Assembly (NCBI RefSeq): GCF_000152905.1
Contig: NZ_AAMY01000002.1
Coordinates: 62,001 to 126,000, forward strand
Direction of reading: 5' to 3'
From: Nitrobacter sp. Nb-311A
GTDB taxonomy: Bacteria; Pseudomonadota; Alphaproteobacteria; Rhizobiales; Xanthobacteraceae
DNA: 64,000 nucleotides
Under the pieces are notes generated by a model that saw nothing but the letters and a program-made list of their open reading frames with translations, was not told the origin of the DNA and made no database searches. A program made the position numbers and the translations under genes. Of this stretch, positions 1,200 to 34,306 are shown in pieces (the stretch's first letter is position 1; every line of letters begins with the position of its first letter).

Positions 1200-1754
1200 T
1201 TATCCATCTTTCCATTTGATCGAGCAGCCAAGAGATGGGTTTTGATCAGCCGGCGCCATACCGGTTCTCGCAATCGCGCGCATGGCCTCAACCAACTCTC
1301 GGGGCGCCTCCGCACGGGGCGGATCCTTGCGGCCTTCGTCGAGCCGGCCGCGGTACTTGAGCTTGCGGTCGGCGCTGTAACCGAAGAAGTCCGGCGTACA
1401 CACCGCCCCATACGCCCGCGCGACTGCTTGGGTCTCGTCGTGCAGATAAGGAAACGGGAAACTGTGAGCCTTGGCGAAATGCTTCATGTTCTCAAATGAA
1501 TCTTCGGGATAGTTCGCGCCATCGTTCGAGCAAATCGCCACAAAGCCAATGCCCTCCGACAGCAGCACCCGCGCGTCCGCAACCATGCGATCGATCACCG
1601 CTTTGACATAGGGGCAATGGTTGCAGATGAAGACGACGACCGTGCCCTTTCCGCCCGCAAGGTCGTCCAGTGAGTAAGTCTTTCCGTCGGTTGCCGGAAG
1701 CCGGAACTCCGGCGCAGGCGTGTCGAAAGTAACCTGGTCGGCTGTCATCGCCAT
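1200..1754 (-). CDS. Thioredoxin-fold (AhpC/TSA-redoxin type) protein
   Basis: A 184-residue soluble redox protein of the AhpC/TSA-Redoxin superfamily, probably a cytoplasmic thiol oxidoreductase. The N-terminal APEFRLPATDGK block followed by VVVFICNHCPYVKAVIDR is typical of this group; Cys-Asn-His-Cys forms the CXXC active site near residues 44-47. The start at 1754 has a strong Shine-Dalgarno (AAGGAG) about 7 bases upstream; the second Met (residue 3) is a less likely start. It is monocistronic. Substrate unknown. It could act as a peroxiredoxin-like enzyme, but the CXXC suggests disulfide reductase activity. Confidence 0.85.
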   Translation of the reverse strand: MAMTADQVTFDTPAPEFRLPATDGKTYSLDDLAGGKGTVVVFICNHCPYVKAVIDRMVADARVLLSEGIGFVAICSNDGANYPEDSFENMKHFAKAHSFPFPYLHDETQAVARAYGAVCTPDFFGYSADRKLKYRGRLDEGRKDPPRAEAPRELVEAMRAIARTGMAPADQNPSLGCSIKWKDG

Positions 1755-2157
1755 GTCGCGTCTCCTTGTCGCCGAAAGAGAAATATGTGATCGGTTTCGA
1801 AGTTTGATTCCTTCGGCTTCCGGACGGTAACCCCCATCTCCCTGCCTTGTAGAAGGTCAGAAGGTCGCACCTGCTGATGCCGTGTTTGCATTAAAACGTC
1901 CTCATTCTGTGCTGCCGGCTCTACAAGGAAGACGCGCTACGCGGTTTTGCCGACGTGATGCTCAGCGGCGGAGTAGTCGTTGGCCCGGTGAAGGTCTCTC
2001 CGATCTTCTTACGCTAACGACAGACTTGGCGGCGCGGGTCGGCCCGGAGGAAGGTCCGGCCTGGCTAAGCTCATCGGAGGGCCTGACTGAACAAGAACGG
2101 ACCACGTTGGATACTCCCGACAAGGAAGGCCCGGCGGAAGCCGAGCCTTTCTTCTCA
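1755..2157. other. Intergenic stretch, nothing supported
   Basis: About 400 bp separating two minus-strand genes. Long open frames on the plus strand (from about 1882) cover both this gap and the small secreted gene, but they have arginine/serine-rich out-of-frame composition and I do not accept them. No convincing hairpin or repeat was seen. Confidence 0.4.
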
Positions 2158-2433
2158 TCACCAGCCGTACCAGTACGGGTAAACCGGCGGATAGGTGCGG
2201 ACCACCCGATACGGCGGACCATAATAATAGGGAGGCGGGCCATAGACCGGTGGCCTATAGTAGACTGGGGGTGCCGCTGCGGCGGCCAGTGTCCCCGCAA
2301 CCAACCCAAAAGCAACTCCTGGAGCGATTCCAGGACCACCCCAGTAGTGATGACGCCAATGAGCCGATGCCGGTGCAACCGTCCCGATGAGGAGCATTGC
2401 TGCCGCGGCGATTCCAAGAGCAAGCTTTCTCAT
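2158..2433 (-). CDS. Small exported Tyr/Pro-rich protein
   Basis: A 91-residue protein of unknown function. The first 24 residues form a signal peptide (MRKLALGIAAAAMLLIG, cleaved near ASA-HW). The mature part holds a Gly/Ala-rich hydrophobic segment and then a tail dense in Pro and Tyr (PPVYYRPP, PPYYYGPP), typical of small periplasmic or envelope proteins in Bradyrhizobiaceae. The frame is open 26 codons further upstream, but the ATG at 2433 is preceded by a GAGG motif and begins exactly at the signal peptide, so I place the start there. No conserved catalytic residues. Confidence 0.7.
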   Translation of the reverse strand: MRKLALGIAAAAMLLIGTVAPASAHWRHHYWGGPGIAPGVAFGLVAGTLAAAAAPPVYYRPPVYGPPPYYYGPPYRVVRTYPPVYPYWYGW

Positions 2434-2684
2434 GTTCACTACCTCACTTACCTTCAAAGACGTCCGCAAAAGCGGGCGGCTGTATTCCCTTTCCAAGCTT
2501 CGTTTCGCCAAACCGCAGTCCGGCTAGAGGTTCAAGTTAGAACCGTAAGCGCCCACTTCAAGTCTTTCTCGCACGCTTCCGACGAACCAACATTCGGATC
2601 GTGCACCCGCGCTGCTTGATCTGCTGAGTCACCATCTGCTGGCGGGCGCGGCGAGAGCGGCGACGTCCGGTATGGCGAACTCGT

Positions 2685-3119
2685 CTATTTGGTCTGGTTG
2701 TGGGCGCCGCCGGGACGCGAGATGCCCGTCAGCGCTCCGCCTGCCGCACCGTCGTCTGAATTCACGGCAATGTCGCCCAGCGAGAGGATGCCTACCAATT
2801 GCTTGTCGCGATTGAGGACCGGCAGGCGGCGCACCTGAATGTCACCCATATTGTGCGTCACCTCATCGATATTCTGATCGTCGAAGCAGTATTTGACATC
2901 ATCGGTCATGACCTCGCGCACTTTGGTTTGCGGCCCTTTGCCTTGGGCTACCGCGCGCATCGCAATGTCGCGGTCGGTGATCATCCCAACAAGGCGATTG
3001 TTTTCGCCGACGGGCAACGCGCCGGCATCGAGGTCAAACATGAGCCGCGCAGCTTGCTCGATGGTTTCATTGGCGTTGGCAACGCGCACATCGCGCGTCA
3101 TAGCTTCCTGCACTTGCAT
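2685..3119 (-). CDS. CBS-domain pair protein
   Basis: A 144-residue stand-alone CBS-pair (Bateman module) protein. Residues 1-60 are the first CBS motif (VQEAMTRDVRVANANETIEQAA, LVGMITDRDIAMRAVA) and residues 66-125 the second (VREVMTDDVKYCFDDQNIDEV, LVGILSLGDIAV). Such proteins bind adenine nucleotides and report energy or stress state; the partner is not indicated by neighbours. The start at 3119 is supported by AGGAG about 8 bases upstream. The tail after residue 125 is Gly-rich and probably disordered. Family assignment is firm, role unknown. Confidence 0.9.
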   Translation of the reverse strand: MQVQEAMTRDVRVANANETIEQAARLMFDLDAGALPVGENNRLVGMITDRDIAMRAVAQGKGPQTKVREVMTDDVKYCFDDQNIDEVTHNMGDIQVRRLPVLNRDKQLVGILSLGDIAVNSDDGAAGGALTGISRPGGAHNQTK

Positions 3120-3340
3120 TGCGGAACTCCTATTTCTGGATCGGCCTCGACGGAAATGCCGGACTCGGCATCAGGCGCTCCACCGATACCTTGGGAACGA
3201 TTCGAGTACCCGAGGGTTCCTCATTCGCTGGCTTTTTGCGTCTGAACGATATGAGACCGTTTTAGTGCGGCGACGTGATCGGTGCCGATCTCAAGCTCAT
3301 TACGAGGATGCGGACGTTCGGGAGCTACGCTTGGCATTCC

Positions 3341-3757
3341 ATGAAATCAATTCGAGTATCTGAAGTGATCGAAATTCTACCAAGCCCAGACAATGTCTTT
3401 GCGATCCACGTGTCAGGAAGGCTGACCGGCGAGGACTATGATCGGATGCTGGCTGCGATCGAAGCAAAACTGAAAGCGCATGAGCGCATCTTCATGTTTG
3501 TTGACATGATAGGCTTCGACGACATGACGGCAGAGGCATTCCGCAAGGACATATCCTACAGTTTTGGGAAACTCGGCGAATGGCATCGGTTTGCTCGCAA
3601 TGCGCTTGTCACCGACAAACAGTGGATGAAACTGCTCGCCAAGGCCGCGGCGCTGTTCTTGCCGCAGCTCCAGATTCAGACCTTCGAGCCTTCAGACCGT
3701 GATGCCGCGTGGGCCTGGCTGACCGGCGCTTCGTCAAGCAGACCGACTTCTGGATAG
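3341..3757 (+). CDS. SpoIIAA-like (STAS-fold) protein
   Basis: A 138-residue protein resembling the SpoIIAA-like family. The core shows the usual pattern: FAIHVSGRLTGEDYDRM, then IFMFVDMIGFDDMTAEA, KLGEWHRFARNALVTDKQWMK and a C-terminal FEPSDRDAAWAWL. The frame opens at 3275, but residues before MKSIRVSEVIEILP do not fit the family, so I choose the ATG at 3341; 3308 is an alternative. These proteins are soluble STAS-like domains with no proven reaction. It sits next to a CBS protein transcribed the opposite way; no operon. Confidence 0.75.
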   Translation: MKSIRVSEVIEILPSPDNVFAIHVSGRLTGEDYDRMLAAIEAKLKAHERIFMFVDMIGFDDMTAEAFRKDISYSFGKLGEWHRFARNALVTDKQWMKLLAKAAALFLPQLQIQTFEPSDRDAAWAWLTGASSSRPTSG

Positions 3758-3805
3758 GAGATAGGCCAGCCGATTCGGCGACACAGCAGGCCGTAACCCG
3801 CACCG

Positions 3806-3913
3806 TCATGTCGCGTACCGTAGGATTTTCTCCATCTTCTTGCCCTGCGGATTGAATTCCTTTTCGGAGTGATCGGTATCCAATCGGGACCCCGGAACCA
3901 GGTCCACACGCAT
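3806..3913 (-). pseudogene. Possible coding remnant (35 codons)
   Basis: A short minus-strand frame beginning MRVDLVPGSRLDTDHSEKEF and ending at a stop at 3806 has a plausible soluble-protein composition, unlike the two overlapping minus-strand frames. Upstream, another short stretch in a different frame (ending near 3957) also reads like protein. Together they suggest the decayed end of a gene just outside the element boundary. No family recognised. The whole 3758-4152 interval otherwise holds nothing I can support. Confidence 0.25.
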
Positions 3914-4152
3914 GACCGGTCGCGTAGGCAGATCCAACGCCGACTATGACGTGCCCAGCAATGTGCCTGGCGCAATGGCTTTGCTTGCCCCGGCGAGAAT
4001 TTTTGTGGACCCTTTCCGTCTCATCCATCCCCCAGCGGCCGGTGCTGCTGGACGATCGACCTGGACGCCAAATCGATATCAAAGCGCATATGCGCGGCAT
4101 GTGGGCAACACTTAGAGCCTGTTAGGAACTGATTGAATTTGCAATGAAACAA

Positions 4153-4355: not shown

Positions 4356-5624
4356 ATGGTCAAGATCACCAAACGCGTTGTCGACGCTGCCGAGGCATCG
4401 GGCGCGGACCGGTTTGTCTGGGATGACGAATTGCCCGGGTTTGGGCTCCGCGTGAAGAAAAGCGGGGCCAAGTCCTTCCTCGTTCAGTATCGCAACGCCA
4501 ATGGCCGGAGCCGGCGGCTCACGGTGGGGCGATACGGTGTCCTGACAGTGGAGGAAGCCCGCAGGGCGGCGAAGATCAGCCTGGCTGATGTCTTGAAAGG
4601 CGTCGATCCGGCTGAAAACAAGAAACTCGATCGCGGGGCCATAACGATTGAGACGCTGTGTCGAGAATATCTCGACAAGGCCGAGCGCGGGCTGATCCTG
4701 ACACGCCGGGGCGAAGCCAAACGCAGATCAACTATCTACACCGACAAGGGACGTGTTGAGCGCCATATCGTCCCGATCTTGGGCAAGCGGACCGTCAAGG
4801 ATGTAACAACCGCAGATATCCGCCGCTTCCAACAGAGCGTGATCAGCGGCAAGACCGCCGCTGACATCAAGACCAAGAAGCGTGGCCGCGCCATTGTCAC
4901 AGGTGGTAAAGGCACCGCCGCTCGCACGATGGGATTGCTGGGTGGAATTTTGAGCTACGCCGTGAATGAGGGCTATCGGCCGGACAATCCGGCACGAGGC
5001 ATCATCCGGCCGAAGGACGAGACACGTGAGTGGCGTCTCGACGACGCCGGATATCGAGCCCTCGGGAAAAAGCTGACAGCAGCCGAAGCCAATGCCGTCA
5101 ACTGGCAACCGATCCTGATCATGCGAGTCATCGCGCTCACTGGATGCCGCCGGGGTGAAATAGAGAGGTTGCTGAAAACCGAGATTGATTTTGCCCGCAG
5201 CGCCCTTCGGCTTGGCGACAGCAAGACGGGCAAGAGCATCCGGCCAATCGGATCGGCCGCTATCGCCGTTCTGAAACAGGCCTGTGAGAAATCCAAATCC
5301 AAATACGTCTTCTCGGCGCTGACGAATGAGAAAAAGCGTTACGTCGGATTGCCAAAGGCTCTCGCCAGCATTGTTGGCGATGCCGTGCCCGGCCTGACAC
5401 CGCATGGCTTGCGTCATTCGTTCAGTTCGACGGCCGAGGATTTGGGCTTTTCGCTGCCGACGATCAAGGCGCTCTTGGGCCATGCTGGAGGCAGCGTGAC
5501 TGAAGGATATATCCACAAAATCGACACTGCTCTGGTTGCGGCGGCGGATCGAATCGCGAGTCATATCGAAACAGCAATGACTGGGAAGAAGGCGGAGAAG
5601 GTTGTCCAGCTTCGGACGACCTAA
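4356..5624 (+). CDS. int: Tyrosine integrase of element 1 (P4-like, DUF4102 N-terminus)
   Basis: Site-specific tyrosine recombinase of 422 residues that would integrate and excise element 1 at tRNA-Arg. Residues 1-90 are the DUF4102-type arm-binding domain ([35 protein letters not shown]). The catalytic domain shows Arg in ALTGCRRGE (about 265), His350 and Arg353 in HGLRHSF, the LLGHA motif and the nucleophile Tyr385 in TEGYIH; all expected residues are present, so it looks intact. The ATG at 4356 lies 7 bases after a pair of arm-type repeats, so integrase binding could repress its own expression. It lies 150 bp inside the left att site. Confidence 0.95.
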
Positions 5625-7309: not shown

Positions 7310-7767
7310 TTGGCATCCTCAATGTGTCAGTACCGCGTGAGCGCTTCACTCACGCGATCCAACATGGGCCGGAGCATCTTCGGCCCACCATGGGCGCGGC
7401 CCGGGATCACGGCGTAGGTGTTTGCGTCGTGCCTCAAGGTGCAGAGAGGTTCAATCCGCCGCGCAAGCGTCCGAACATCGTCATCGTCGGTGACGACATG
7501 CACGAGGCCAGAGGGCCGACCGCCTTTCATCGGAAATCGCTTGTTCGCTTCATCAAGCGGGCGAGTGGAGCAGTCATCGTGTCATGCGCGCCATTGACGG
7601 CCGCCTATGCCGCAGCCGCAACCAATGCAGCGTTGTTTCGGCAAGACATTCTGATTGTCGAGACCCGGCTGAAGTTTGAGCCGGCATGGAAAACCTTCGT
7701 TGAGGCCCATCATCCGGGCATTGCGCTGCTGCTCTGTACCGTCGAACCGCAGGGAGGCGTACAGTAA
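7306..7767 (+). CDS. Hypothetical protein preceding the primase-helicase
   Basis: A 153-residue soluble protein. The centre RPNIVIVGDDMHEARGPTAF resembles a Rossmann-type beta strand followed by acidic residues, and SGAVIVSCAPLTAAYAAAATNAAL suggests an alternating alpha/beta fold. I do not recognise a family. It is translationally coupled upstream (ATGA) and downstream (TAATG at 7765-7769) to the primase-helicase, so it is likely an accessory of the replication module. Confidence 0.6.
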   Translation: MIGILNVSVPRERFTHAIQHGPEHLRPTMGAARDHGVGVCVVPQGAERFNPPRKRPNIVIVGDDMHEARGPTAFHRKSLVRFIKRASGAVIVSCAPLTAAYAAAATNAALFRQDILIVETRLKFEPAWKTFVEAHHPGIALLLCTVEPQGGVQ

Positions 7768-10532
7768 TGGGCGCGGTCAATCAGGCTTTTGAACATAGCG
7801 GCCGGATCGATTTTGCGGCGGTCAGTCATGCCGCGCGGGTCGCCTTGACCAGCCTTGTGCAGGACTGGCTACCCGACGGCAGGAGAGAAGGCTCCGAATG
7901 GATCTCTCGCAATCCCACGCGTGGCAATACCCGTCCCGGGTCTTTCAAGATCAATCTGTCCACCGGGGTGTGGTCGGATTTCGCGACCGGCGAAGCTGGT
8001 GGCGACGCCATCGACCTGCTGGCGTACCTTAACCGTACATCAAAGCTTGATGCGGCACGCGAGATTGCGCAGCGGCTCGGTGTGACGGGCGGTACGGCGT
8101 CAATACCACGCACAGCGCAGGCGACGAAACCTACGCCGTCTCCGATCGATCTGAACGCGGCCCCAACCTTCCCGGCCCGCACCTCTCCGGACCAGGACGG
8201 CAAGCCCCGGTTTGTGATTGCCGGAGACGAGGGTCCGCGCATCCGGGACGATGAGAAGCGCCGTCACGTCTACCGCGTCGGTGGCGTGCCGGTCCGGATC
8301 AAGATCATGCGCAAGGACGGCAACGCGATGAACGTCTATCGCGTGACGGACACCGACGGCACAACAGGCTGGCAATACCGAAAACCAAAGGGCTTTGCCG
8401 CTGTCCCATACTTCACCGGCAGAAATCCGTTCGAGGGTGAGCAAGACCAATTCATCTACTGGCCCGAAGGTGAGAAGGATGTGGATACCCTTGCGAAGCT
8501 TGGCTTGCCTGCCTTCACGTTCGGCGGGTGTGGTGACGGGCTGCCGTCCGGCTGTGAGCAATACCTCACCGGCCGCAATGTCGTGATCCTCGCCGACAAT
8601 GACGACGAGGGGCGCAATCATGCCGACAAAAAGGCCGCGCTTGCATTTCCAGTGGCAGTCAGCGTCCGCGTCGTTCACTTCGATGACGTTCCGAAGAAAG
8701 GTGACGTATCCGACTGGATCGAGGCGGGACACACGGCGGATGACTTGCGGGCTCGTGTTGACGCTGCGCCGCAATGGACACCGCCGGCTGATGAAGCTGG
8801 GTCGGAGTCTGGCACCACTGTGCTACCCTTCGGTTACAAGTTCACCGAACGGGGACTGATGTGGCTCAATCCAGACGATGACGAGAAGCCGCCAATGCAG
8901 ATTGCCGGCCATTTCGACATCCTCGCGGAGACCCGGGACGGTGAAGGCGGCAGCTGGGGCTTGTTGCTCCATTGGAAGGACCATGATGGCCGCGAGCATC
9001 GCTATGCGTTGCCGCGTGCCATGCTGGCCGGCGATGGATCAGAAGCGCGGCGGGCCTTACTGGATGGTGGCATGTTCATTGCCCCAAGCGCTAAGGCTCG
9101 CACGCAGTTCAACTCGTTCCTGCTTCAAGTGCGATCCCCAAACCGGGCACGTGCAACCCAGCGGGTAGGATGGCACGGTAACTCGTTCGTTCTCCCGGAC
9201 GACTGTTTCGGTGCCGATCAGCGCGACATGCTGCTGTTGCAAAGCGCGACGGCGCACGAGCATTCCTTCCGCCAGAAGGGCACGTTGCAGGACTGGCAGG
9301 ACAATGTTGCGCGCTACGCGATCGGCAACAGCCGTCTGGTCGTGGCGCTCTCGGCAGCCTTCGCCGGCCCGTTGATCGGGCCCTGTTCGGCCGAGGGTGG
9401 GGGCCTGCATTTCCGTGGCGCGTCTTCCACTGGCAAGAGCACCGCGCTCCTGGTGGCTGGTAGCGTCTGGGGTGGTGGCGAGGTCACCGGGTTCGTCCGC
9501 TCCTGGCGCGCCACCGCCAACGGCCTCGAAGGCGTGGCACTCGGACATTCCGACACGCTGCTCTGCCTTGATGAGTTGTCGCAGCTTGCGGCCAAGGATG
9601 CAGGCGAAGCGGCCTACATGCTTGGTAACGGCTCAGGCAAAAGCCGGTCCTCCCGGGATGGTTCGGCGCGACGTGCCGCCAAGTGGCGTGTCATGTTCCT
9701 GTCCTCAGGCGAGATCAGTCTTGCCGACAAGGTCGCCGAGGACGGCCGTGGTCGTCGTCTGGCCGCCGGTCAGCAGGTGCGCATCGTCGACATTCCGGCC
9801 GATGCCGGCGCTGGCATGGGGCTGTTTGAGAACCTGCACGGCTTTGACTCTGCCGAGGCGTTGGCGCGTCACCTGCGCGCTGCCACGATGCAGAACTATG
9901 GCGTCGCTGCTCGCGAGTATCTGGCTGCGGTGGTCTCCAACATCGACGTTCTTCGCAAACAGGTCTCCGAGCTTGTCCGCGCCTTCTGCGAGCAGTTCGT
10001 GCCAGCCGGCGCTGATGGGCAGGTCGAACGGGTAGCCCAGCGGTTCGGGTTGGTCGCCGCCGGTGGCGAGATTGCCGTTCGTTGTGGGGTCGTTCCGTGG
10101 CAGCGTGGTGAAGCGACCTTAGCTGCCGGCCGCTGCTTCGAAGACTGGCTTGCCGTTCGCGGCGGGATCGAACCGGCAGAAGCCCGTGAGGGCATCGATC
10201 AGGTTCGCTCGTTTCTTCTCGCCAACGGCATGGCTCGGTTCATTCCCGCTTGGGAGGATGACCAGGACAAGCGCATTCAGCCGCGCGACGTAGCCGGCTA
10301 TCGCCAGAAGGTCGGCGATGGCTGGGACTACTTCATCACCACCACCGCATGGAAGGAGGAAGTCTGTCGCGGGCTTGATGCGCGCCGGGTCGCGGCGACC
10401 CTAGAGCAGAAGGGCGGCCTGCTTTGCGACACAAAAACTCATCGGACCAACGTCTGTCGCGTGCCGGGCCACGGTCGCTTACGACTCTATCATGTGCCAG
10501 CGCGCTTCTTGGAGGCCGACCATGATGCATAG
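7767..10532 (+). CDS. Primase-helicase: TOPRIM plus DUF927 P-loop protein
   Basis: A 921-residue multidomain replication protein. Residues 40-95 (SFKINLSTGVWSDFATGEAGGD) match the zinc-less primase N-domain seen in DUF927/phage primases; residues about 230-290 are a TOPRIM-like block (YWPEGEKDVDTLAKLG, NVVILADNDDEGRNHA). The DUF927 helicase-like region follows: FTERGLMWLNPDDDEKPP, VGWHGNSFVLPD, a Walker A GASSTGKST at about residue 551 and a Walker B LLCLDELSQ. By analogy to the alpha protein of phage P4 it would prime and unwind at the element's own origin. Start and stop overlap both neighbours, and a cluster of GGTGAC iterons begins 47 bp after its stop. Confidence 0.88.
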   Translation: MGAVNQAFEHSGRIDFAAVSHAARVALTSLVQDWLPDGRREGSEWISRNPTRGNTRPGSFKINLSTGVWSDFATGEAGGDAIDLLAYLNRTSKLDAAREIAQRLGVTGGTASIPRTAQATKPTPSPIDLNAAPTFPARTSPDQDGKPRFVIAGDEGPRIRDDEKRRHVYRVGGVPVRIKIMRKDGNAMNVYRVTDTDGTTGWQYRKPKGFAAVPYFTGRNPFEGEQDQFIYWPEGEKDVDTLAKLGLPAFTFGGCGDGLPSGCEQYLTGRNVVILADNDDEGRNHADKKAALAFPVAVSVRVVHFDDVPKKGDVSDWIEAGHTADDLRARVDAAPQWTPPADEAGSESGTTVLPFGYKFTERGLMWLNPDDDEKPPMQIAGHFDILAETRDGEGGSWGLLLHWKDHDGREHRYALPRAMLAGDGSEARRALLDGGMFIAPSAKARTQFNSFLLQVRSPNRARATQRVGWHGNSFVLPDDCFGADQRDMLLLQSATAHEHSFRQKGTLQDWQDNVARYAIGNSRLVVALSAAFAGPLIGPCSAEGGGLHFRGASSTGKSTALLVAGSVWGGGEVTGFVRSWRATANGLEGVALGHSDTLLCLDELSQLAAKDAGEAAYMLGNGSGKSRSSRDGSARRAAKWRVMFLSSGEISLADKVAEDGRGRRLAAGQQVRIVDIPADAGAGMGLFENLHGFDSAEALARHLRAATMQNYGVAAREYLAAVVSNIDVLRKQVSELVRAFCEQFVPAGADGQVERVAQRFGLVAAGGEIAVRCGVVPWQRGEATLAAGRCFEDWLAVRGGIEPAEAREGIDQVRSFLLANGMARFIPAWEDDQDKRIQPRDVAGYRQKVGDGWDYFITTTAWKEEVCRGLDARRVAATLEQKGGLLCDTKTHRTNVCRVPGHGRLRLYHVPARFLEADHDA

Positions 10533-11449: not shown

Positions 11450-11624
11450 CGGGCCGCCTGCCCATGATGATTCCGTAATGATTACCCTGAAAGGGCGCTC
11501 CCGCTGCGAATCCCTCGCCTAAGGAGGCCCTGTTCCGTGAACGGTGATAGACGTAGTATGGAAAAGCCACGACGCGTTCGTCGTACCCTTGACTAGGCCC
11601 CCATGCTCAGACGGAACTAGGGAT

Positions 11625-12515
11625 ATGAGCACAAATAGACGGAATTTTATTTGGGCTTCGTTGCTTTCCGCTACTTATTTGGTTCCGCTCAGGCAAGTAA
11701 GAGGAGCTTCGTCAGGTAGTTTTGACGTAGAGGAAGAGCAACTAGCAACCTCTGGCAGCTTCGATGACGACTATGTCACGCTCGAGCCAGAACTGAAGAC
11801 CAACCCGATCCCAACGCATCCGTCTCGCGTTGCGCTCGTAATTGGTAACTCGCGCTACAATTTCTTCCCCAAACTCGCAAACCCTGAACATGATGCGACA
11901 GACCTTGCGGCAATCCTTCGTTCAACGGGCTTCAAGGTTGTCTTTGGCACTAATTTGCCACGCATCACAATGGAGAACGCAATTGCGACATTTGTGAAGA
12001 ACGCCAGAACAGCAAGCGCTTCGCTTGTATTTTTCGCAGGGCATGGACTGCAATACCAGGGGGTGAATTACCTTGCCCCCGTCGATGGGCAGCTTTCAGA
12101 CGAGACAGACCTGAAAAAATTTATCCGCCTTCAGGATGTAATTGACGATCTACAAAACACCCCTGGCGTAAGGATACTCATCGTAGATGCATGCCGTGAC
12201 AATGATGCGATTACACAGCTAGCGGCAAGTGCACCTACACCTAAATCAAGATCGATAGGTTTGCAGCGTGGCTTGGCAAAAGTAGAGGCTGATGGAATAT
12301 TTGTAGCTTTCGCGAGTCAGGCGAACAAGGTTGCGTCAGATGGCAACGGCCGCAACAGCCCATTTACTGCATCCCTTTTGAAGCGGATCGTTGAACCTGG
12401 CGTGGAACTCAGGACAATTATGACGAGAGTTCGTGGAGACGTCGTGACTGCGACGCATAACGCTCAGCGGCCAGAAGCATGGGATAGCTTGATCGGGGAA
12501 TTTACTTTCCGCTAA
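11625..12515 (+). CDS. Tat-exported caspase-like (peptidase C14) protein
   Basis: A 296-residue caspase-family cysteine peptidase. The catalytic dyad is His140 in VFFAGHGLQ and Cys190 in ILIVDACRDN; the N-terminal strand is RVALVIGNSRY, as in bacterial caspase homologues. Residues 1-28 form a probable Tat signal peptide (TNRRNFIWASLLSATYL), so the protein is predicted to be exported, followed by a 35-residue acidic linker. The frame is open to 11544, but the ATG at 11625 begins at the signal and I choose it. It is noticeably AT-richer than the flanking phage genes and sits alone between the replication and virion blocks, as cargo. Substrate and role unknown. Confidence 0.85.
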   Translation: MSTNRRNFIWASLLSATYLVPLRQVRGASSGSFDVEEEQLATSGSFDDDYVTLEPELKTNPIPTHPSRVALVIGNSRYNFFPKLANPEHDATDLAAILRSTGFKVVFGTNLPRITMENAIATFVKNARTASASLVFFAGHGLQYQGVNYLAPVDGQLSDETDLKKFIRLQDVIDDLQNTPGVRILIVDACRDNDAITQLAASAPTPKSRSIGLQRGLAKVEADGIFVAFASQANKVASDGNGRNSPFTASLLKRIVEPGVELRTIMTRVRGDVVTATHNAQRPEAWDSLIGEFTFR

Positions 12516-24270: not shown

Positions 24271-24315
24271 TGGCGCACCCGACACGATTCGAACGTGTGA
24301 CCTTTGCCTTCGGAG
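24271..24315 (-). other. Middle attachment site: 45-bp tRNA-Arg copy
   Basis: Forty-five bases identical to the tRNA-Arg 3' end; identity stops five bases earlier than in the left copy. It is shared by both elements as the junction between them. Confidence 0.9.
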
Positions 24316-24420: not shown

Positions 24421-25443
24421 TCATGACAGAGCCTCCACGGCACTTCGAAGGTGATCGGGGTGATGGTGGCCGTAGACCCGCTGGAGGGTCTCCGGTGTCA
24501 TATTCAGATATCCGGACGCTTCCCAGATCGGGACGCCTTTTTGCATGAGCCAGGTTGCACAGGTGTGCCGGAGAACATGCGGCGTCACGCCGGCGAGCTC
24601 GCCGCGATCGCAAGCAGTGGCGAAACTGCGCTTGATGTCCTTCAGTCGCCGGCCGTTCTCATGAATGACAAAACCTAATTCCGTGCCACGCTGGCAGGCC
24701 CGCTTCAGATGCGACAGTAAGCGCGCGGGAATCGGAATCCGGGATCTGCGCTTGTTGGTCCGACGTGCGCCAGGTTGATTGAAGTCAATTCGGCCATTGA
24801 CGAGATCGATTTGCGGCCAGCGCAGCGAAAGAATCGCCTCTTTCCGCTGCCCGGTGTAGAGACCGATCACAATGAATAACGGCAGATGGAGTCGCACGCG
24901 CGGCTCCCTGAGAGCTGCTCGCAAGAGAGCCGCGGCCTCCTTACGTGTTAGCCAACGATCACGGGGCTCCGCACCATCCGGCAAATCAACGGCAACCACC
25001 CGCAGCAACCGGCCGCAACGGTGCGCGTGATTGATCGCGGCGCGCAGAACGCCAAGCTCGCGCCGGGCCGTACCAGGAGCTCGCGCTCGCGAGACGCCGT
25101 ATTTCCGGCACGTCTCGCGTGTCACCTCGGCAACCGTTTTCCCCTGCCAGTAGGGCACCATCGCCTTGACCGCGGCAGCTATCCGCCATGGTGCCGCCGT
25201 TTCCGGCGCGTGCTCCTCCGTGTAGTCGGCAAGGACGTCGGTTATGAGGACTTCAGCGGGATCACGCGGGCCGGCGTCCCGCGTGCGGATGTGGAGGAAG
25301 TCAGCGAGGGCGGCTTCAGCGACTGCGCGGTCCGCAGAGCCCGTTGAGCGCTCGCGGCTGCGTCCACCTTCGGTCCAGACGATATAATAACATTGGCGCT
25401 TGTCGAGAAACCGGAGGCGCGGCCCGGAGTTTCTGCGCGGCAT
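24421..25443 (-). CDS. int: Tyrosine integrase of element 2
   Basis: A 340-residue tyrosine recombinase. The N-terminus RLRFLDKRQCYYIVWTEGG is typical of a group of alphaproteobacterial prophage integrases. The catalytic Arg-His-Arg/Tyr residues are visible: GLYTGQRKEAILSLRW, HVLRHTCATWL (Arg292) and nucleophile Tyr324 in RVYGHHHPD. It is transcribed toward the middle att site. Its first 67 codons overlap the excisionase-like gene in another frame. It differs in N-terminus from the integrase of element 1, so the two elements are independent integrations at one tRNA. Confidence 0.93.
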   Translation of the reverse strand: MPRRNSGPRLRFLDKRQCYYIVWTEGGRSRERSTGSADRAVAEAALADFLHIRTRDAGPRDPAEVLITDVLADYTEEHAPETAAPWRIAAAVKAMVPYWQGKTVAEVTRETCRKYGVSRARAPGTARRELGVLRAAINHAHRCGRLLRVVAVDLPDGAEPRDRWLTRKEAAALLRAALREPRVRLHLPLFIVIGLYTGQRKEAILSLRWPQIDLVNGRIDFNQPGARRTNKRRSRIPIPARLLSHLKRACQRGTELGFVIHENGRRLKDIKRSFATACDRGELAGVTPHVLRHTCATWLMQKGVPIWEASGYLNMTPETLQRVYGHHHPDHLRSAVEALS

Positions 25444-25637
25444 GGTGACACCGTGTTTTCAATGATGAACTGATCGAGCGCCTCACGCGGAATGAGGACG
25501 CGCGCTCCAACCGGAGTTCGAGCCATCTGGCCGGCCGCGACGAGCGAACGAACCTGCGATTCGGTGATGCCGAGATATTCGGCAGCTACTTTCACCGTTA
25601 CTAGACGAGGAAGATCGGAAAGCGACAGAGCCGCCAT
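25242..25637 (-). CDS. Excisionase-like helix-turn-helix protein overlapping int
   Basis: A 131-residue frame whose first 65 residues are a clear MerR/Xis-type helix-turn-helix (LVTVKVAAEYLGITESQVRSLVAAGQMARTPVGARVLIPREALDQF). It runs 202 bp into the integrase gene in a different frame, and its tail (Ser/Thr/Ala-rich) has a composition that looks imposed by the integrase codons. It starts 3 bp after the stop of the upstream gene. Directionality factor is the most likely role. Confidence 0.75.
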   Translation of the reverse strand: MAALSLSDLPRLVTVKVAAEYLGITESQVRSLVAAGQMARTPVGARVLIPREALDQFIIENTVSPCRAETPGRASGFSTSANVIISSGPKVDAAASAQRALRTAQSLKPPSLTSSTSARGTPARVIPLKSS

Positions 25638-25640
25638 GGT

Positions 25641-26264
25641 TCACCGTCCCTGCTTTCGCTTCGTCTTCTTGCGAGTTACGGGGCGCGCCTTTTTTGCCAC
25701 CTTCACTCGTGGCACCTTATAAGTGATCGTTACTACGCGTTCGACCCGGTCCTCCTCCCAATCGATGAGATTTATCCAGTCATCAGGCAACAGATCTGAA
25801 AGAGTGATAATCAAAAAGAACGAAGGACCGACAACGCCCGAGAGGTCTTTTAGCGTCGTTTCACATGGGAGTCGGCGGAGATTGAATTTTCCCTGCTTGC
25901 CGACCTCCACCAATACATGTTGATCTTGGAACCATTGCCGGTCGCCAATGGACCGAGAACTGCAAAACTCCTCATAGACCGGCAGTACCAGCATTGCGAT
26001 ATCCACCGCAGCCTGGGCGGCATGACCTGCTTTCGTCAGATCAACAACTAGCTTGGTGACGGCGATATCCGATGCCGAATACCGATTCCATCCGCCCGAC
26101 ATCATAGTGTCGGGGAAAAGTCCGTTGCGCCTTCGCCATGCGCGAAGAGTCGCAGGCTCGCATCCTGCGACCTTGCATACGGCGGACGCCAGATACTCGC
26201 GCGGGTCGACCTCTTCATCTTCGCCATCACGGCCGATATATTGAACGCCCTTCGCCACGGCCAT
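25641..26264 (-). CDS. MerR-like helix-turn-helix protein of element 2
   Basis: A 207-residue protein. Residues 30-95 (VCKVAGCEPATLRAWRRRNGLFPDTMMSGGWNRYSASDIAVTKLVVDLTKAGH) are a MerR-type winged helix with the NRYSASDI wing. The rest is an uncharacterised effector-like domain (FFLIITLSDLLPDDWINLIDW) and a very basic tail (KVAKKARPVTRKKTKRKQGR). The frame opens at 26336; I choose ATG 26264, with modest certainty. It is the gene before the excisionase-like gene, in the same unit, and may regulate it. Confidence 0.65.
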   Translation of the reverse strand: MAVAKGVQYIGRDGEDEEVDPREYLASAVCKVAGCEPATLRAWRRRNGLFPDTMMSGGWNRYSASDIAVTKLVVDLTKAGHAAQAAVDIAMLVLPVYEEFCSSRSIGDRQWFQDQHVLVEVGKQGKFNLRRLPCETTLKDLSGVVGPSFFLIITLSDLLPDDWINLIDWEEDRVERVVTITYKVPRVKVAKKARPVTRKKTKRKQGR

Positions 26265-26379
26265 CTCCACAATTCGAAACAAGATTATCGATTCTGCTAT
26301 TCGATGCAAGCGTTTCGTTTCTGCGCGAGCGCGCAAAGGTAGGCGACTGGGGAAATTCCCCAGTCGCTCACCATTCGGA

Positions 26380-27580: not shown

Positions 27581-27611
27581 AAAAACCCCCTAACGAACTG
27601 TTAGGGGTTTC
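27581..27611 (-). terminator. Hairpin 1, terminator of the nuclease-like gene
   Basis: A stem CCCCTAAC/GTTAGGGG with a GAACT loop; on the minus strand it is followed by a T-run, so it serves as a rho-independent terminator 93 bp beyond the stop of the minus-strand gene. Nearly the same sequence recurs at 30272-30299. Confidence 0.75.
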
Positions 27612-27703: not shown

Positions 27704-30190
27704 TCAAGACGAACGCGCTGACCGGTGAGCACGACGCGCGAGCCGCTTTTGCCAGTACTCCTGTCGTTCAACGTGAAACGGCCTCATATTGAGATAGATT
27801 TGCTGTGTGGCGTCTGCAAGCATGGACAATGTCCGGATTCGGTTGGTGCTGGAAAACTGCGCGTGCTTTCCCCCAAGCGTTTTCCATGTATGCGAAACAC
27901 TGTAGTCCATTGTTAATTCGTGCGAGGTGAGCAGCAAGACGGGATTTGTCGGCTCGCCGAAGGCATTTACGCGTCTTCCCCACTTCACGAAGCCTTGCAA
28001 AATATTGGTTTCGGCTGGTGTAAAATGATCGCGGAGAACAGCGATCACAATCACCGCTTCAGGTAATTTTGCTGCGACGGACCTAAGCTTTGTCAACTCG
28101 CTCGGTTTTATAAGCTCGCCTTGGCCGAGCGATTTTGCTTCGCCAATCACCAGTTGGGGAGGACGCCGCGTTTCACGCAAGCCGTCGTCGCTGTGCCAGG
28201 CAATAAAATCGACCTCGCGTGTAACTCCGTCAAACGCCAGGTCCATCGCGGTAGCGAACGTCATCCGATCCATTGTATCGATGGCGCGGTTGACGACGCG
28301 AAGCGCAAGAAGAGCGCTATAGGAACCCCTGCCGAAATCTGGCACTGAGAAGGGGCCGACAACACGGTAACTCCAGTTGCCATTTTGATTGCGCAACGCG
28401 GCCTGCGGAAACTCATACGAATTTAGGCAGCGTTCACAGTTCAGTCGATAATCAACCGCTGTTAGCGAATTCCAGTTTGTAGTCTTACAAGTTGGACAGT
28501 CGATTTCCAAACCCAGACGTATGACATTCGCATCGGTGAATTGCTTCAAGTCTGGACTACGAAAAAGCTCGCGCTTTCTTTTGACGATGAGATCTCGCCA
28601 GGCCTTGACTGAGGCCGTGCGTAGCTCAAAACTCTCTTCAACGGCATCGTCCTTCAGGCGCCTGCGTCGCAGTCCGCCCGCCATCTTGTTCAATAGCTTG
28701 AGAGTGTTTATGTCGGCCAACATGCCGACTCTATTTAGTCCGCCCAAATGCTCTAGCATCTGTTTAGCAATATGTCCCGGCTCAGAAAGGCTCGCAGTAA
28801 TTCCAATCTTTTTCAGCGAATCAATAATAGCTTCCTCAGACCTCAGCAAAGAAACGTACTGTTCCAGACTCGAAAACTGTTGCGAAAAGACCCAGCCCTC
28901 GCTTCCAATCGGTATATGTTCGCCGCCCATGCCAAGACGTGGCCACGAACGATCGAACGTATTAAAGGGCAGTATGGTGGCCGCGCTTTGGTCCCAAAAA
29001 GTAGACGGCTTAAGCACATTTACCCAACGGTGATCGCCCCCGCCGTAACGGCTCGAAAACTTGGGTACCAATGGTTGAAACGTCGTAGTCAAACGTTTCT
29101 CTTCGTCTTTAACGATTAGGTTCACACGCTTTTCCTCGGCGGTGACTAGTAGGCGCGTGGCGCGATGGACAAAGGGATTATGGTGATCGACCCAGATCGG
29201 CGTGCGCCATAGTTTCACTAAGAGTGCCCCAGCAGGGAGACCCGTTTTGAGCTTTCCTAACAGAGCCTCTGTGGTCGTTTTCTCTATCGAGCGGCTAAAC
29301 TCGATTGTCGCGTTATGCATGACTCCGTTTGGATTACCGACAACCGGACGATGTTGAGATCTTACGAACTCAGATATGTCATCCGACAGTGCCTCGAACC
29401 AAGTTATCGGAATGGGCAGAACTGGACTGGGTTCGAGTTTCAAATTCCAAACATCGATAAGGTCGGTGGCCCTTGTCGGATCAAAAACGAACAAAACAGG
29501 ATCGTGGTGCCAATATCGCTGCGCGTCGAGCCCGTAGCGCGTCGCGCGGAGTGGAGTCAGTGACCCGTTAGCAAAAACGCGACGCCAGGTTTCTGGCGAA
29601 GCTTCGGCCTGCTCAGGCTTGTACACGTCTACGTAAGCGGCCTGAGCATAGGTCAGATCGGTCGACGTGGGATACACCCCAAATATGCACTCGACCAGGC
29701 CGTCGCCCCGCTGAGGTTTGACCAATAAGCAATCACTCTTTTCGCGGAGAACAAACCTCTGCTCAGATTCATATACATGACGAAACACGTCAAGGATGTT
29801 CAGCCCGTATGCAGGCTCTGAATAGCTGCGACCGCCTTCTGATTCGAAGAATTGCTTAAGGGTAATGGCCGACGCTCGCGTCGCATGTTCCTGGCGAATG
29901 CTGCCAAGGCCTGCCTTCTCTAACAAACCCTCTTCTGCCTCGACATACACGTCTGGCTCAAAGAACCGGGCGTAACCCTTCGAAACAGATAACCCATTCA
30001 AACGTTCGTATGACTCTGCCTTCCATTCGGGAGGCGGTCTATTGAACACCGGAATGATCACATTATAAGACCCACCCCAAAGACACGTGCATGCACGCAT
30101 AATCGAGCGCACTGATGCAAGGTCCGAAGGTCGAACGAGAAATCCGATCCGAGTCGGCCTGAGCCTAATTTCGGCCATGAGTTCGGACAC
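27704..30190 (-). CDS. Large zinc-finger and PD-(D/E)XK-like protein (candidate defence gene)
   Basis: An 828-residue protein of unknown name. The N-terminus (RIGFLVRPSDLASVRSIMRACTCLWGGSYNVIIPVF) looks conserved. In the C-terminal third, a four-Cys zinc ribbon (CPTC at 565-568, CERC at 585-588) is followed by a nuclease-like core with Asp661 in EVDFIAW, then Glu684-x-Lys686 in VIGEAKS: the D...ExK order of PD-(D/E)XK nucleases. Of three possible starts I choose GTG 30190, which has GGAGG 9 bases upstream and precedes the conserved N-terminus; 30223 and 30178 are alternatives. It is AT-richer than its neighbours and has similar hairpins on both sides. Anti-phage defence is an inference from fold, size and location. 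Confidence 0.7.
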   Translation of the reverse strand: MSELMAEIRLRPTRIGFLVRPSDLASVRSIMRACTCLWGGSYNVIIPVFNRPPPEWKAESYERLNGLSVSKGYARFFEPDVYVEAEEGLLEKAGLGSIRQEHATRASAITLKQFFESEGGRSYSEPAYGLNILDVFRHVYESEQRFVLREKSDCLLVKPQRGDGLVECIFGVYPTSTDLTYAQAAYVDVYKPEQAEASPETWRRVFANGSLTPLRATRYGLDAQRYWHHDPVLFVFDPTRATDLIDVWNLKLEPSPVLPIPITWFEALSDDISEFVRSQHRPVVGNPNGVMHNATIEFSRSIEKTTTEALLGKLKTGLPAGALLVKLWRTPIWVDHHNPFVHRATRLLVTAEEKRVNLIVKDEEKRLTTTFQPLVPKFSSRYGGGDHRWVNVLKPSTFWDQSAATILPFNTFDRSWPRLGMGGEHIPIGSEGWVFSQQFSSLEQYVSLLRSEEAIIDSLKKIGITASLSEPGHIAKQMLEHLGGLNRVGMLADINTLKLLNKMAGGLRRRRLKDDAVEESFELRTASVKAWRDLIVKRKRELFRSPDLKQFTDANVIRLGLEIDCPTCKTTNWNSLTAVDYRLNCERCLNSYEFPQAALRNQNGNWSYRVVGPFSVPDFGRGSYSALLALRVVNRAIDTMDRMTFATAMDLAFDGVTREVDFIAWHSDDGLRETRRPPQLVIGEAKSLGQGELIKPSELTKLRSVAAKLPEAVIVIAVLRDHFTPAETNILQGFVKWGRRVNAFGEPTNPVLLLTSHELTMDYSVSHTWKTLGGKHAQFSSTNRIRTLSMLADATQQIYLNMRPFHVERQEYWQKRLARRAHRSARSS

Positions 30191-30271
30191 GATGAGGAGC
30201 CTCCACCTACGCGTTTTCTTCACCCGTCGACGTTTTCGTCACCGCGGGGTGCCCCTAGATGCGCACCCGGT

Positions 30272-30299
30272 AACCCCTGACGAACCGTTAGGGGTTTTT
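30272..30299 (+). terminator. Hairpin 2, upstream twin of hairpin 1
   Basis: AACCCCTGAC, loop GAACC, GTTAGGGGTTTTT. It stands 80 bp before the start of the nuclease-like gene and is oriented as a terminator for plus-strand transcription. Over about 25 bases it matches hairpin 1 in the same orientation with few differences. Confidence 0.65.
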
Positions 30300-30898: not shown

Positions 30899-32122
30899 TC
30901 AGCTTGCGCTGAACCTCAGAAGCTTCACGGCCTCACTGTTCTGCAGGCCACCGCCAACGCGGCGGTAGGCGTAGAAGATGACGTGAGGCTTCGCGGTATA
31001 AGGATCGCGCATCAGTCGCAGACCGGGTCGATCGACGACAATGTAGGTTTGTTCCAGGTCCCCAAAGGCGATCGACAGCGAGTCCTCTGCAATGTCGGGC
31101 ATCTCTTCATCAAGCTCGACAGGAAAGCCGCAGAGCGAGGCAGGCTGCCCCTCGCGCGCGTCAGCCCAAACGAAGCGACCCTCGGCATCCTTGAGTTTTC
31201 GGACAACCCCCGCCGTCGATAGATTCATCAGCCAGCGTGCATTTGGACGATACGGTGCTCGAAGGCTGTAAACGACGTTGAATAGGGCGTCGCCTCCGTT
31301 CACCGATGTCGATGCCGCCGCGAACCCGCCGTCGACGCCGGTGATGATGTGCTGAATCGTTCCCCACGGACGTACGCCGTCCTTGTCCGTCGACGTGCTA
31401 TAGGTCAAAAGCCCGCGCGGCTTTTTGATACCGTCACCGGTCACGTAACCTTTACCTTCCGTCCGCGCGAACTTATCCGCGATTTTTCCCTCGAGCCATT
31501 GGCCAACGTTGATTTCACTGTCGTCCAGCAACCGTTGCGTGATCGGTTGCGAGGTGTAGATCTCGTGAAGGGGCACGGACAGGTAACGCAACGACGATGT
31601 TGTGAGGGACGGCCGTTCTTCCCGTTCACCCACCCACTCAGCACCGATGTCAGAGGGATCGATCGGCTCCTCAAAAGAATCTCCCCGTTCGATAGTCACG
31701 CGCCGCGCCAGCCGGCCCAGTGGCGATACATCGAAAACCTTGCGCTGAATCTGCTTTGAGATGGTCGGCGTGACAAGGTAGCCACCCTCCGGATCGCTGT
31801 CGCTTGACATTCCCGCGACCGGCCTGGCCATGGCCTTAATACCTGCATCGCTGCCATTTTTGGCAAACAAGCCGACAGCCGACCGCTCCGTCGCAGCCGC
31901 GGAATTGTCAGGAACAAGGCTGCCGCCGCCGACCTTCAGCGCGGCAAGCGAGGAGTTGATCGCGTCGATATCCTTTTCGATTCCGTCGATTTTCCCGGCA
32001 TTATTCTCCTTGAATGACCCAAACGCGTCGATCAGTTCGGTGAGAATCGCGGCTGGAGAATTGGCATCGGCGCGTGCTTGCGCCAATAATTTTTGTCCTC
32101 GCTGACGAAGGTGCTCACTCAT
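30899..32122 (-). CDS. HK97-fold major capsid protein
   Basis: A 407-residue HK97-family major capsid protein. The N-terminal 70 residues are a coiled coil (delta-like scaffold domain, DAFGSFKENNAGKIDGIEKDIDAI), and the shell domain has family landmarks: GGYLVTPTISKQI, SPLGRLARRVTIERG, EWVGEREERPS, EIYTSQPITQRLLDDSEIN, and a C-terminal block PHVIFYAYRRVGGGLQNSEAVKLL. It overlaps the upstream small gene by 4 bp. No protease, portal or terminase lies nearby, so it is a lone virion gene in a 10-kb element. Confidence 0.92.
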   Translation of the reverse strand: MSEHLRQRGQKLLAQARADANSPAAILTELIDAFGSFKENNAGKIDGIEKDIDAINSSLAALKVGGGSLVPDNSAAATERSAVGLFAKNGSDAGIKAMARPVAGMSSDSDPEGGYLVTPTISKQIQRKVFDVSPLGRLARRVTIERGDSFEEPIDPSDIGAEWVGEREERPSLTTSSLRYLSVPLHEIYTSQPITQRLLDDSEINVGQWLEGKIADKFARTEGKGYVTGDGIKKPRGLLTYSTSTDKDGVRPWGTIQHIITGVDGGFAAASTSVNGGDALFNVVYSLRAPYRPNARWLMNLSTAGVVRKLKDAEGRFVWADAREGQPASLCGFPVELDEEMPDIAEDSLSIAFGDLEQTYIVVDRPGLRLMRDPYTAKPHVIFYAYRRVGGGLQNSEAVKLLRFSAS

Positions 32123-33176: not shown

Positions 33177-33860
33177 CTAGGGCGGCTGCGCCTCGCGCAC
33201 CTCGAGCCGGACGCGTTCCAGCGTTTCAGTGTTCAGACGGCCAGCGCGTTCTTGTGCCGTGAGCTGATCGAGCCGGCCGACTGGCAGGTTGCCAAGAATC
33301 ATCCAGCCGTCAGGGCCAAGGCGCTGCGCGATGCGGTTCTGAATTGTTTCAGGACGCTCGGATCTGACCGATGACCTGCTCGCAGGATGCATGGCTGATC
33401 GCTGCGTCGCTTCCTTCCCATTGCCAGACCGACTGAGGTTCTCCACAGGAGGCGGTGGTGAAGAGGGTAAGGGAGAAGTGATGGTTCTATGATGGTTCAT
33501 AGATGTGCGATGAGTCGCACAATTCGATGTGCGATCGGCGCACATCAAAGCCTCGGATTGAGCACCGGTTTGATGTGCGTCCGTCGCACATCTATTCATG
33601 CATAGCTCGTAAGTATGGACCCTCTTTCGAAGACCGCCGGCGGCCCGAATCACCCTGATGAATCCGATCTCCTCGAGCGCCTTGACGTGGCGAAGTACGG
33701 TCTCGCGCCGGCATGATGCTTCGCGACCGATGGTCGCCATGGATGGCCAGCACCGCCCCGTGACGTGGTCGGCGTGGTTCGCGAGTGAGATCAGGACCAG
33801 CTTTGAGCGCGGGTCGTTGATGTGCTGTTCGAGCGCCCAGGCGACCGCTTGGATACTCAT
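33177..33860 (-). CDS. Replication-initiator-like winged-helix protein with internal dyads
   Basis: A 227-residue protein. Residues 1-85 form a winged-helix DNA-binding domain ([61 protein letters not shown]), the kind found in phage replication initiators. Residues about 90-165 are a polar, Pro/Ser-rich linker, and the DNA encoding residues 90-120 contains three 21-bp dyads. The C-terminal 60 residues (IQNRIAQRLGPDGWMILGNL, ERVRLEVREAQPP) form another domain. This is the architecture of lambda O: DNA-binding domain, origin in the linker, helicase-recruiting tail. It is ATGA-coupled to the upstream gene. Confidence 0.75.
   Translation of the reverse strand: MSIQAVAWALEQHINDPRSKLVLISLANHADHVTGRCWPSMATIGREASCRRETVLRHVKALEEIGFIRVIRAAGGLRKRVHTYELCMNRCATDAHQTGAQSEALMCADRTSNCATHRTSMNHHRTITSPLPSSPPPPVENLSRSGNGKEATQRSAMHPASRSSVRSERPETIQNRIAQRLGPDGWMILGNLPVGRLDQLTAQERAGRLNTETLERVRLEVREAQPP
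33502..33592. repeat. Three 21-bp dyads inside the initiator-like gene
   Basis: GATGTGCG/CGCACATC-type palindromes at 33502-33522, 33526-33546 and 33572-33592 (the first has a degenerate right half). Starts are 24 and 46 bp apart, about one and two units. Candidate origin iterons of element 2; origin function is an inference from position in the gene. Confidence 0.65.
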
Positions 33861-34150
33861 GCGCTCGACTCCCCGCACGCGGGAGCGAAAAGCTCTTCAA
33901 GAAACCGTTTGCGGACGTCCGGCGCGGCGGAGCGCCAGGCGTCGCGCAGCGGCTGTAGAGCATCCGCAACGCCGGCGGCTCGCGCCATGCCGTCGCGAAT
34001 TCGCTGGCGCACCGCCGGGTCCGCCATGCGAATCTTCGTCTCTTCGCTGACCCTTGCCCGCTCGGCCGGATCAGCCCACCGTGCGCGGTTTCTTTCCGCG
34101 ATTTTCGCCTTAGCCTCGGGCGAGTGCTTCCAGCCGCTGGGCTTCGTCAT
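33857..34150 (-). CDS. NUMOD3-like small basic protein
   Basis: A 97-residue protein beginning [20 protein letters not shown], a pattern like the NUMOD3 DNA-binding motif ([26 protein letters not shown]). It is ATGA-coupled to the initiator-like gene and is the promoter-proximal gene next to the tRNA end. It may bind DNA. The C-terminus ([26 protein letters not shown]) is helical. Confidence 0.55.
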
Positions 34151-34229: not shown

Positions 34230-34306
34230 TGGCGCACCCGACACGATTCGAACGTGTGACCTTTGCCTTCGGAGGGCAACGCTCTATCCAGCTGAGCTAC
34301 GGGTGC
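34230..34306 (-). tRNA. tRNA-Arg (anticodon CCG), integration target
   Basis: A complete 77-base cloverleaf with encoded CCA. The 7-bp acceptor stem (GCACCCG/CGGGTGC), D arm (GCTC...GAGC), anticodon stem TTGCC/GGCAA with loop CTCCGAA giving anticodon CCG, and T arm are all intact. Decodes CGG. Its 3' half (up to 50 bases) is repeated at 24271 and 4153, so it is the attachment target of both elements, and its function was preserved at integration. Confidence 0.95.

Follow-up and report, generated by a model that had tools for sequence, protein, structure and literature searches.

A zinc-ribbon protein with a predicted PD-(D/E)XK-type nuclease core as cargo of a satellite-like island in Nitrobacter sp. 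Nb-311A

Card1 is an effector of type III CRISPR (clustered regularly interspaced short palindromic repeats) systems that combines a CARF domain with a nuclease, and its nuclease domain, like those of Cdn1 and Can2, is of the PD-(D/E)XK type. The core of this fold follows the order alpha-beta-beta-beta-alpha-beta, with the Asp located on strand 2 and the ExK motif on strand 3. In Cap4, a SAVED plus nuclease protein of the cyclic-oligonucleotide-based antiphage signaling systems (CBASS), the nuclease comes first in the domain order. Cdn1 (PMC12825302) and Can2 (PMC7969007) likewise pair a CARF domain with a nuclease and serve type III CRISPR as effectors. The protein considered here comprises 828 residues and is encoded on a satellite-like island within a 64,000-nucleotide stretch of Nitrobacter sp. 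Nb-311A (contig NZ_AAMY01000002.1, positions 62,001 to 126,000; hereafter the window, to whose own numbering all unprefixed coordinates refer). We read it as a stand-alone, metal-dependent nuclease of the PD-(D/E)XK type that is carried as mobile-element cargo and most likely acts against phages or competing mobile DNA, a reading to which we assign a probability of roughly 0.6.

The protein is predicted to unite four parts in one polypeptide: an N-terminal alpha/beta module, followed by a middle region, then a zinc ribbon and, at the C-terminus, a nuclease. The gene and its parts are as follows:

27704..30190, minus strand: gene of the zinc-ribbon/PD-(D/E)XK protein, 828 amino acids, GTG start (from homologue starts and upstream GGAGG)
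29291..30190, minus strand: N-terminal alpha/beta (Rossmann-like) module, residues 1-300 (from conservation and AlphaFold2)
28427..28498, minus strand: putative zinc ribbon, C565xxC568...C585xxC588 (from Cys conservation and zinc-ribbon Pfam matches below cut-off)
28037..28327, minus strand: predicted PD-(D/E)XK-type nuclease core, residues 622-718 (from secondary structure of the model and conservation)
28208..28210, minus strand: codon of D661, predicted active site (from sequence and conservation)
28133..28141, minus strand: codons of E684-A685-K686, predicted active site (from sequence and conservation)

The ribbon residues C565, C568, C585 and C588, together with E659, D661, E684 and K686 of the core, are invariant in all 11 full-length rows of the main branch of the family. 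When the more remote branch is included, giving 15 C-terminal rows (a count that leaves out the N-terminal fragments L013 and L016), the four Cys residues, E659, D661 and E684 are present in every row and K686 in 14, the exception being the remote member L023; the predicted active site is kept in rows down to 16% identity. The N-terminal module is conserved as well, featuring R11-P12-x-R14, W38-G39-G40, D80 and D243....W248-N249. The four-Cys ribbon and D...ExK core that the first-pass annotation had proposed from the letters of the window are both present, and its expectation that homologues retain D661, E684 and K686 holds throughout the main branch and, for the Lys, in all but one of the 15 rows.

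The full-length AlphaFold2 model, built from 12 rows, has a predicted local distance difference test score (pLDDT) of 76.8 and a predicted template-modeling score (pTM) of 0.73. Its core comprises helices (H) and strands (E) in the order H622-637, E643-653, E656-666, E679-686, H696-708 and E712-718, so that E659 and D661 fall on strand 2 of the core, and E684 and K686 on strand 3. This modeled strand order is typical of PD-(D/E)XK nucleases, and structure prediction, on which the initial proposal had been made to depend, yields a nuclease-type core at residues 622-718. In a Foldseek comparison of the full model with the PDB, the top three matches were Cdn1 (E 1.4e-3), Card1 (2.8e-3) and Can2 (3.2e-3); the Cdn1 match reached probability 1.00 over 333 columns, and the root-mean-square deviation (rmsd) ranged from 8.5 to 22.6 across the three, in output that does not show which residues align. 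Cap4 chains appear in the same list at ranks 11 (E 0.27), 29 and 32. Against a viral library, rank 1 was an unnamed Bacillus phage protein (8.9e-3), and a restriction endonuclease stood at rank 22 (115 columns, 4.3 A, E 0.63). A separate model of residues 1-300 (pLDDT 79.0, pTM 0.83) found glutamate racemases as its best match, the only one below 0.001 among the matches listed. A racemase-like N-terminus (E 3.0e-4) was nevertheless rejected: a match between two-domain alpha/beta proteins is generic, and the two superpose poorly, with rmsd 17.6 and a template-modeling score of 0.21. A single match of profile A3 to the PDB (viral VP1, E 2.8) was likewise taken as chance.

The minus-strand open frame spans 27704-30223 and counts 839 codons from its first GTG. 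The start at 30190, giving 828 residues as first annotated, is preferred because the earliest candidate starts of the homologues L003, L004 and L005 align with this GTG and a GGAGG lies 9 nt 5' of it. Compared with the gene, L002 differs at 81.5% of synonymous and 22.2% of non-synonymous sites, and L005 at 84.0% and 24.4%, respectively; toward the four closest homologues, synonymous sites are saturated while non-synonymous differences amount to only 22-35%, so the frame did not arise by chance but encodes a conserved protein. The gene is under purifying selection. Described earlier as AT-rich, it has a guanine-cytosine content of 51.5-52.8% over 28001-30000, which is below that of most of the window.

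The full protein had no match in Pfam, NCBIfam, PHROGs or PADLOC at the limits used, and none among PDB sequences up to E 1; the accessions of four homologues are absent from the papers searched, in keeping with its designation as undescribed. In the comparison with PD-(D/E)XK and defense profiles that the first-pass annotation had suggested, no Pfam or PADLOC profile matched the window protein; a match to a described Pfam family would be a supporting sign but does not define the PD-(D/E)XK superfamily. Pfam matches of the C-terminal rows are below threshold or scattered and fall mostly into zinc-binding families; of those related to PD-(D/E)XK, REase-ARP (0.078) was matched by a single row of the 15, as was Hjc (0.08), and no others appeared. 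A literature search on zinc ribbons, PD-(D/E)XK nucleases and defense surfaced only work on coiled-coil nuclease tandems (CoCoNuTs), within open-licence papers whose silence carries little weight; the passages of PMC11229360 consulted do not mention the family.

Ten further full-length relatives with 21-65% identity were found. Two other genomes contain fragments, and three more distant members form a branch of their own. The full-length copies come from genome contigs (L002-L005), from plasmids (L006 and L007, 2 of 72,556 plasmid records), from a viral contig (L008) and from further genomes (L010, L011 and L012), and the fragments (L013 and the pair L014/L016) lie near contig ends. The member in genome G531 is in two parts, N- and C-terminal, on two contigs (L014 and L016), which may reflect a split gene or an assembly break. 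Because L006 and L008 look alike in the alignment, they are not counted as two independent lineages. Scans of viral contigs with L012, L010, L023 and L007 as queries found no relative, and the L008 query returned its own contig. In an hhalign comparison, the remote branch (L023, L027 and L028) matches the main branch across most of its length, with 631 aligned columns at probability 99.5 and E 1.3e-22, and a second Burkholderia glumae plasmid carries a copy 99.9% identical to L027.

In frequency counts that include the own genome each time and draw on overlapping samples, the family occurs in 1 of 101 relatives, 3 of 397 genomes of the order, 1 of 385 of the class and 5 of 398 of the phylum, one of the last five being the remote L023 genome; the class of G531 gave 2 of 78, and two samples searched with the remote branch gave 1 of 200 and 1 of 101. 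The family is rare and patchy. The L010 copy, whose genome (G184) belongs to the order of the window, shares 40% identity with a Photobacterium plasmid copy and 31% with that of the window; this greater closeness to the plasmid copy than to its order-mate points to horizontal transfer.

Members of the family were located at 16 distinct places (the window, L002-L008, L010-L012, the two fragmentary genomes, L023, L027 and L028), and signs of mobile elements are present at 10 of these, the window among them. L006, L007, L027 and L028 are on plasmids; L002 is adjoined by a resolvase, with an integrase also present; L004 is accompanied by conjugation genes (coupling protein and ATPase of a type IV secretion system); L008 has a Mu-type transposase upstream; L011 (on L018) lies with an integrase-like protein beside tRNA-Thr; and L012 (on L019) is flanked by two tyrosine recombinases. 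Defense genes are clearest around L007, which lies within a defense island whose nearest 8.5 kb or so upstream contain IetAS (E 1.5e-149 and 0) together with a PrlF/YhaV pair and an AbiJ-like gene. A 1313-aa protein with sub-threshold NACHT/AAA matches (L018:6-3947), 4.7 kb upstream of the L011 member, makes for a suggestive defense context. Among the remaining neighborhoods, L005 has a DUF2971 neighbor with tRNA-Pro nearby, G531 a DUF2130 neighbor (L021-L022), and G570 (L020) a HigB-type toxin-antitoxin pair. Two arrangements in the remote branch are recorded as side observations: a 1226-aa protein with a weak AAA match (L023:2530-6210) lies 9 bp upstream of the L023 member, possibly forming a two-gene version, and on the Burkholderia glumae plasmid three tandem tyrosine-recombinase genes and a small protein precede the member (L027:2414-7254).

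In the window, the gene resides on an island of approximately 10 kb bounded by perfect 45-bp attachment (att) repeats, one of them within a tRNA-Arg gene. Its other features are as follows:

24271..24315, plus strand: att repeat, left end of island, 45 bp (perfect repeat)
34230..34274, plus strand: att repeat, right end of island, within tRNA-Arg (perfect repeat)
34230..34306, minus strand: tRNA-Arg (CCG), integration target (right att repeat at one end)
24421..25443, minus strand: tyrosine-recombinase integrase of the island (Pfam Phage_integrase 6.8e-16; PHROG integrase 5.4e-52)
25242..25637, minus strand: HTH_17 excisionase-like protein (Pfam)
25641..26336, minus strand: MerR-type helix-turn-helix regulator (Pfam)
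30899..32122, minus strand: HK97-type major capsid protein (NCBIfam major_cap_HK97 2.7e-93, over cut-off)
33177..33878, minus strand: replication-initiation-like protein (PHROG 3.2e-22)

An integrase together with attL/attR at a host gene, here tRNA-Arg, is a criterion for phage-inducible chromosomal islands (PICIs) and related phage satellites, and the island has both. With the integrase, the att repeats, the capsid and the replication gene, its gene content fits the satellite-like element originally suggested. No terminase, portal or tail protein was found among the island proteins scanned, a set that omits some small open reading frames, and no near DNA match to the island was found in phage records. 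The tRNA-side flank matches all 9 genomes of the genus, the own genome included, while window positions 1-4145 have no match in the loci of 5 relatives compared, so that an empty attachment site is not demonstrated.

A third copy of the 45-bp repeat at 4153, which the first-pass annotation does not mention, places two islands in tandem. The second extends over 4153-24315 with the same tRNA-Arg att sequence, possibly constituting a further defense module; 567-aa and 898-aa neighbors that have no assigned family are also encoded on it. Its annotated genes are as follows:

4356-5624: own integrase of the second island
7767-10532: DUF927 protein of the second island
11544-12515: caspase-domain protein of the second island

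Genes related to the capsid gene are widespread, occurring in 71 of 101 genomes when the own genome is counted. Among the closest, two were inspected, one in the same genome beside tRNA-Ser (L040) and one in another genome (L041), and the 828-aa gene had no match within either. The integrase of L041 is supported by Pfam, and that of L040 was called from a weak tblastn match (E 0.004) and reading by eye. L041 carries a 1113-aa metallophosphoesterase protein that matches the PADLOC candidate PDC-S60 (7.1e-18), and also an Arr-like protein; in L040 the neighbors include a protein with a WYL domain and another that weakly resembles PtuB (0.015). These stretches hint at capsid-bearing islands with exchangeable cargo in these bacteria.

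Two hairpins lie around the gene:

27587..27607, minus strand: terminator-like hairpin directly downstream of the gene (hairpin scan)
30274..30294, plus strand: near-copy of the downstream hairpin, 19/21 identical, upstream of the gene (flank comparison)

The terminator ascribed to the gene by the first-pass annotation is consistent with the downstream hairpin, although the scan is weak on its own, since the scanned region yielded 7 terminator-like sites where shuffled sequence gave 4.3 on average (standard deviation 2.4). The near-identical upstream copy (2 mismatches in 21), also absent from the first-pass annotation, indicates that the gene is bracketed by hairpin repeats: the two flanks align locally with a score of 38, compared with a maximum of 30 in 1000 mononucleotide shuffles, which are a lenient null. 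A search of the window and loci (574,481 bases, duplicates included) that tolerated as many as 4 mismatches found no further copy. Such bracketing hairpins might mark a cassette boundary for cargo exchange.

As to mechanism, the N-terminal half, with its conserved R11, R14, D80, D243, W248 and N249, would be the sensor or recognition part, and the zinc ribbon would probably contact nucleic acid. The N-terminal half might respond to something present on infection, whereupon the nuclease would be freed to cut nucleic acid, and both host and island would be protected from phages or competing mobile DNA. Catalysis, sensing and defense are, in our judgment, likely properties of the window protein; we infer the anti-phage or anti-plasmid role from mobility, from the one clear defense-island neighborhood and from analogy. 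Several observations weigh against a defensive nuclease. PADLOC-DB 2.0.0 models match neither the window protein nor 7 other members tested, no homologue was found in 50,697 phage records with three queries, and L007 alone offers a clear defense neighborhood. No mobile-element gene was noticed at 6 of the 16 places (L003, L005, L010/L017, G570 on L020, G531 on L021 and L022, and L023), many neighbors there having been read by eye only. On the structural side, the full model had no Foldseek match at E <= 0.001 in the PDB or the viral library, the C-terminal profile (A9) retrieved 11 PDB chains (best E 0.054), none of them a nuclease and most of them zinc-finger or ribbon proteins, and L023 lacks the predicted catalytic Lys. 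Overall, the original interpretation stands in part: a nuclease-type core in the predicted model and, within the databases and papers searched, an undescribed family are supported, the gene content fits a satellite-like island, and a single-gene anti-phage or anti-plasmid system would be the probable role.

Other functions could account for such an architecture. A type IV-like restriction enzyme, whose N-terminal or middle part together with the ribbon would read modified or foreign DNA before cutting and would need no partner methyltransferase, agrees with a single protein bearing a nuclease-type core and a zinc ribbon and with the lack of a methyltransferase among the island proteins scanned (neighbors at the other loci having been scanned in part); known modification-reading domains, however, were not matched, and we regard this explanation as unlikely. 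The prominence of Cdn1, Card1 and Can2 in the Foldseek list, with Cap4 at rank 11, raises instead a cyclic-nucleotide-gated effector with a CARF/SAVED-like sensor, related to Card1/Can2/Cdn1 or to Cap4 and triggered by messengers of type III CRISPR or CBASS. The alpha/beta N-terminal module with its conserved charged and aromatic residues would suit such a sensor, and two matches to the SMODS cyclase model in the own genome exceed the cut-off. Yet those fold matches all exceed E 0.001 and superpose at rmsd 8.5-22.6, and the N-terminal model alone has no CARF or SAVED protein among the best 50 of its 633 Foldseek matches. Nor is a cyclic-nucleotide source (Cas10 or CD-NTase) a common feature of the 10 carriers covered by the cyclase tests, a set outside which the carriers of L006, L007, L008, L023, L027 and L028 fall: SMODS occurs in only 2 of the 10, the own genome among them, and the Cas10 palm model has no match in the own genome. 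Matches of that model in 5 of the 10 carriers, 1 over cut-off and all in open frames of 137-460 aa, are read as GGDEF cross-hits because the model also matches an E. coli control. CARF/SAVED membership was therefore not adopted, given the N-terminal result and carriers that mostly lack cyclases, and a cyclic-nucleotide trigger, while possible, is disfavored, making this explanation distinctly unlikely.

Least probable is a nuclease that serves its element instead of defending the host, whether during replication or recombination or by interfering with a helper phage. The integrase, capsid and replication genes of the carrier island would accord with such a role, as would the position of L027 behind three tandem recombinase genes and of L008 near a Mu-type transposase. 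The carriers nevertheless are of several sorts, from a tRNA island and a Mu-like viral contig to plasmids and conjugative DNA. A terminator-like hairpin belongs to the gene itself, and the gene has no match in the capsid-bearing stretches L040 and L041. A stand-alone defensive nuclease of the PD-(D/E)XK type continues to be our preferred reading. A more novel and rather doubtful reading would make the protein a stand-alone analogue of the ligand-gated CRISPR/CBASS nucleases: the N-terminal half would bind an infection signal that does not come from Cas10 or CD-NTases, perhaps a phage-derived or stress metabolite, and activate its own zinc-ribbon nuclease, with the gene spreading at low frequency via satellite-like islands, plasmids and Mu-like phages.

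The 828-aa protein represents the prototype of a coherent family that the models used from PADLOC, Pfam, NCBIfam and PHROGs do not cover, with two branches and a testable predicted active site. If defensive, it would be a compact one-protein system, and if the N-terminal half is a sensor, its trigger, once identified, would provide a test of whether ligand gating of nucleases occurs independently of the CRISPR or CBASS cyclases.

Among described systems, the island resembles PICI-type satellites: it measures about 10 kb, has its att site in a tRNA gene and encodes an integrase, a regulator, a replication initiator and a phage head protein. It differs from them in that the capsid gene is the only such gene found, the scanned proteins including neither a terminase nor a portal or tail protein, and in that no helper is known. 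CoCoNuTs and McrBC-type type IV restriction systems came to attention through the literature on zinc ribbons and defense islands; CoCoNuTs are described there as a McrBC branch with coiled coils, whereas Pfam searched up to E 0.1 gives neither a GTPase nor an AAA match for the window protein. Its likeness to Cap4 consists of weak Foldseek matches, E 0.27 or worse, and it differs from Cap4 in domain order and in the scarcity of SMODS cyclases among its carriers. Cdn1, Card1 and Can2 are its best PDB fold matches and share with it an alpha/beta module ahead of the nuclease; unlike their chains of 342-399 residues, the window protein is more than twice as long and adds a zinc ribbon and a middle region, and it also departs from them in the lack of a CARF match for its N-terminal half (within the same best 50) and of a convincing Cas10 in the 10 carriers. 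Single-protein, defense-type nucleases on mobile DNA are a known kind, and the family and architecture described here appear to be new.

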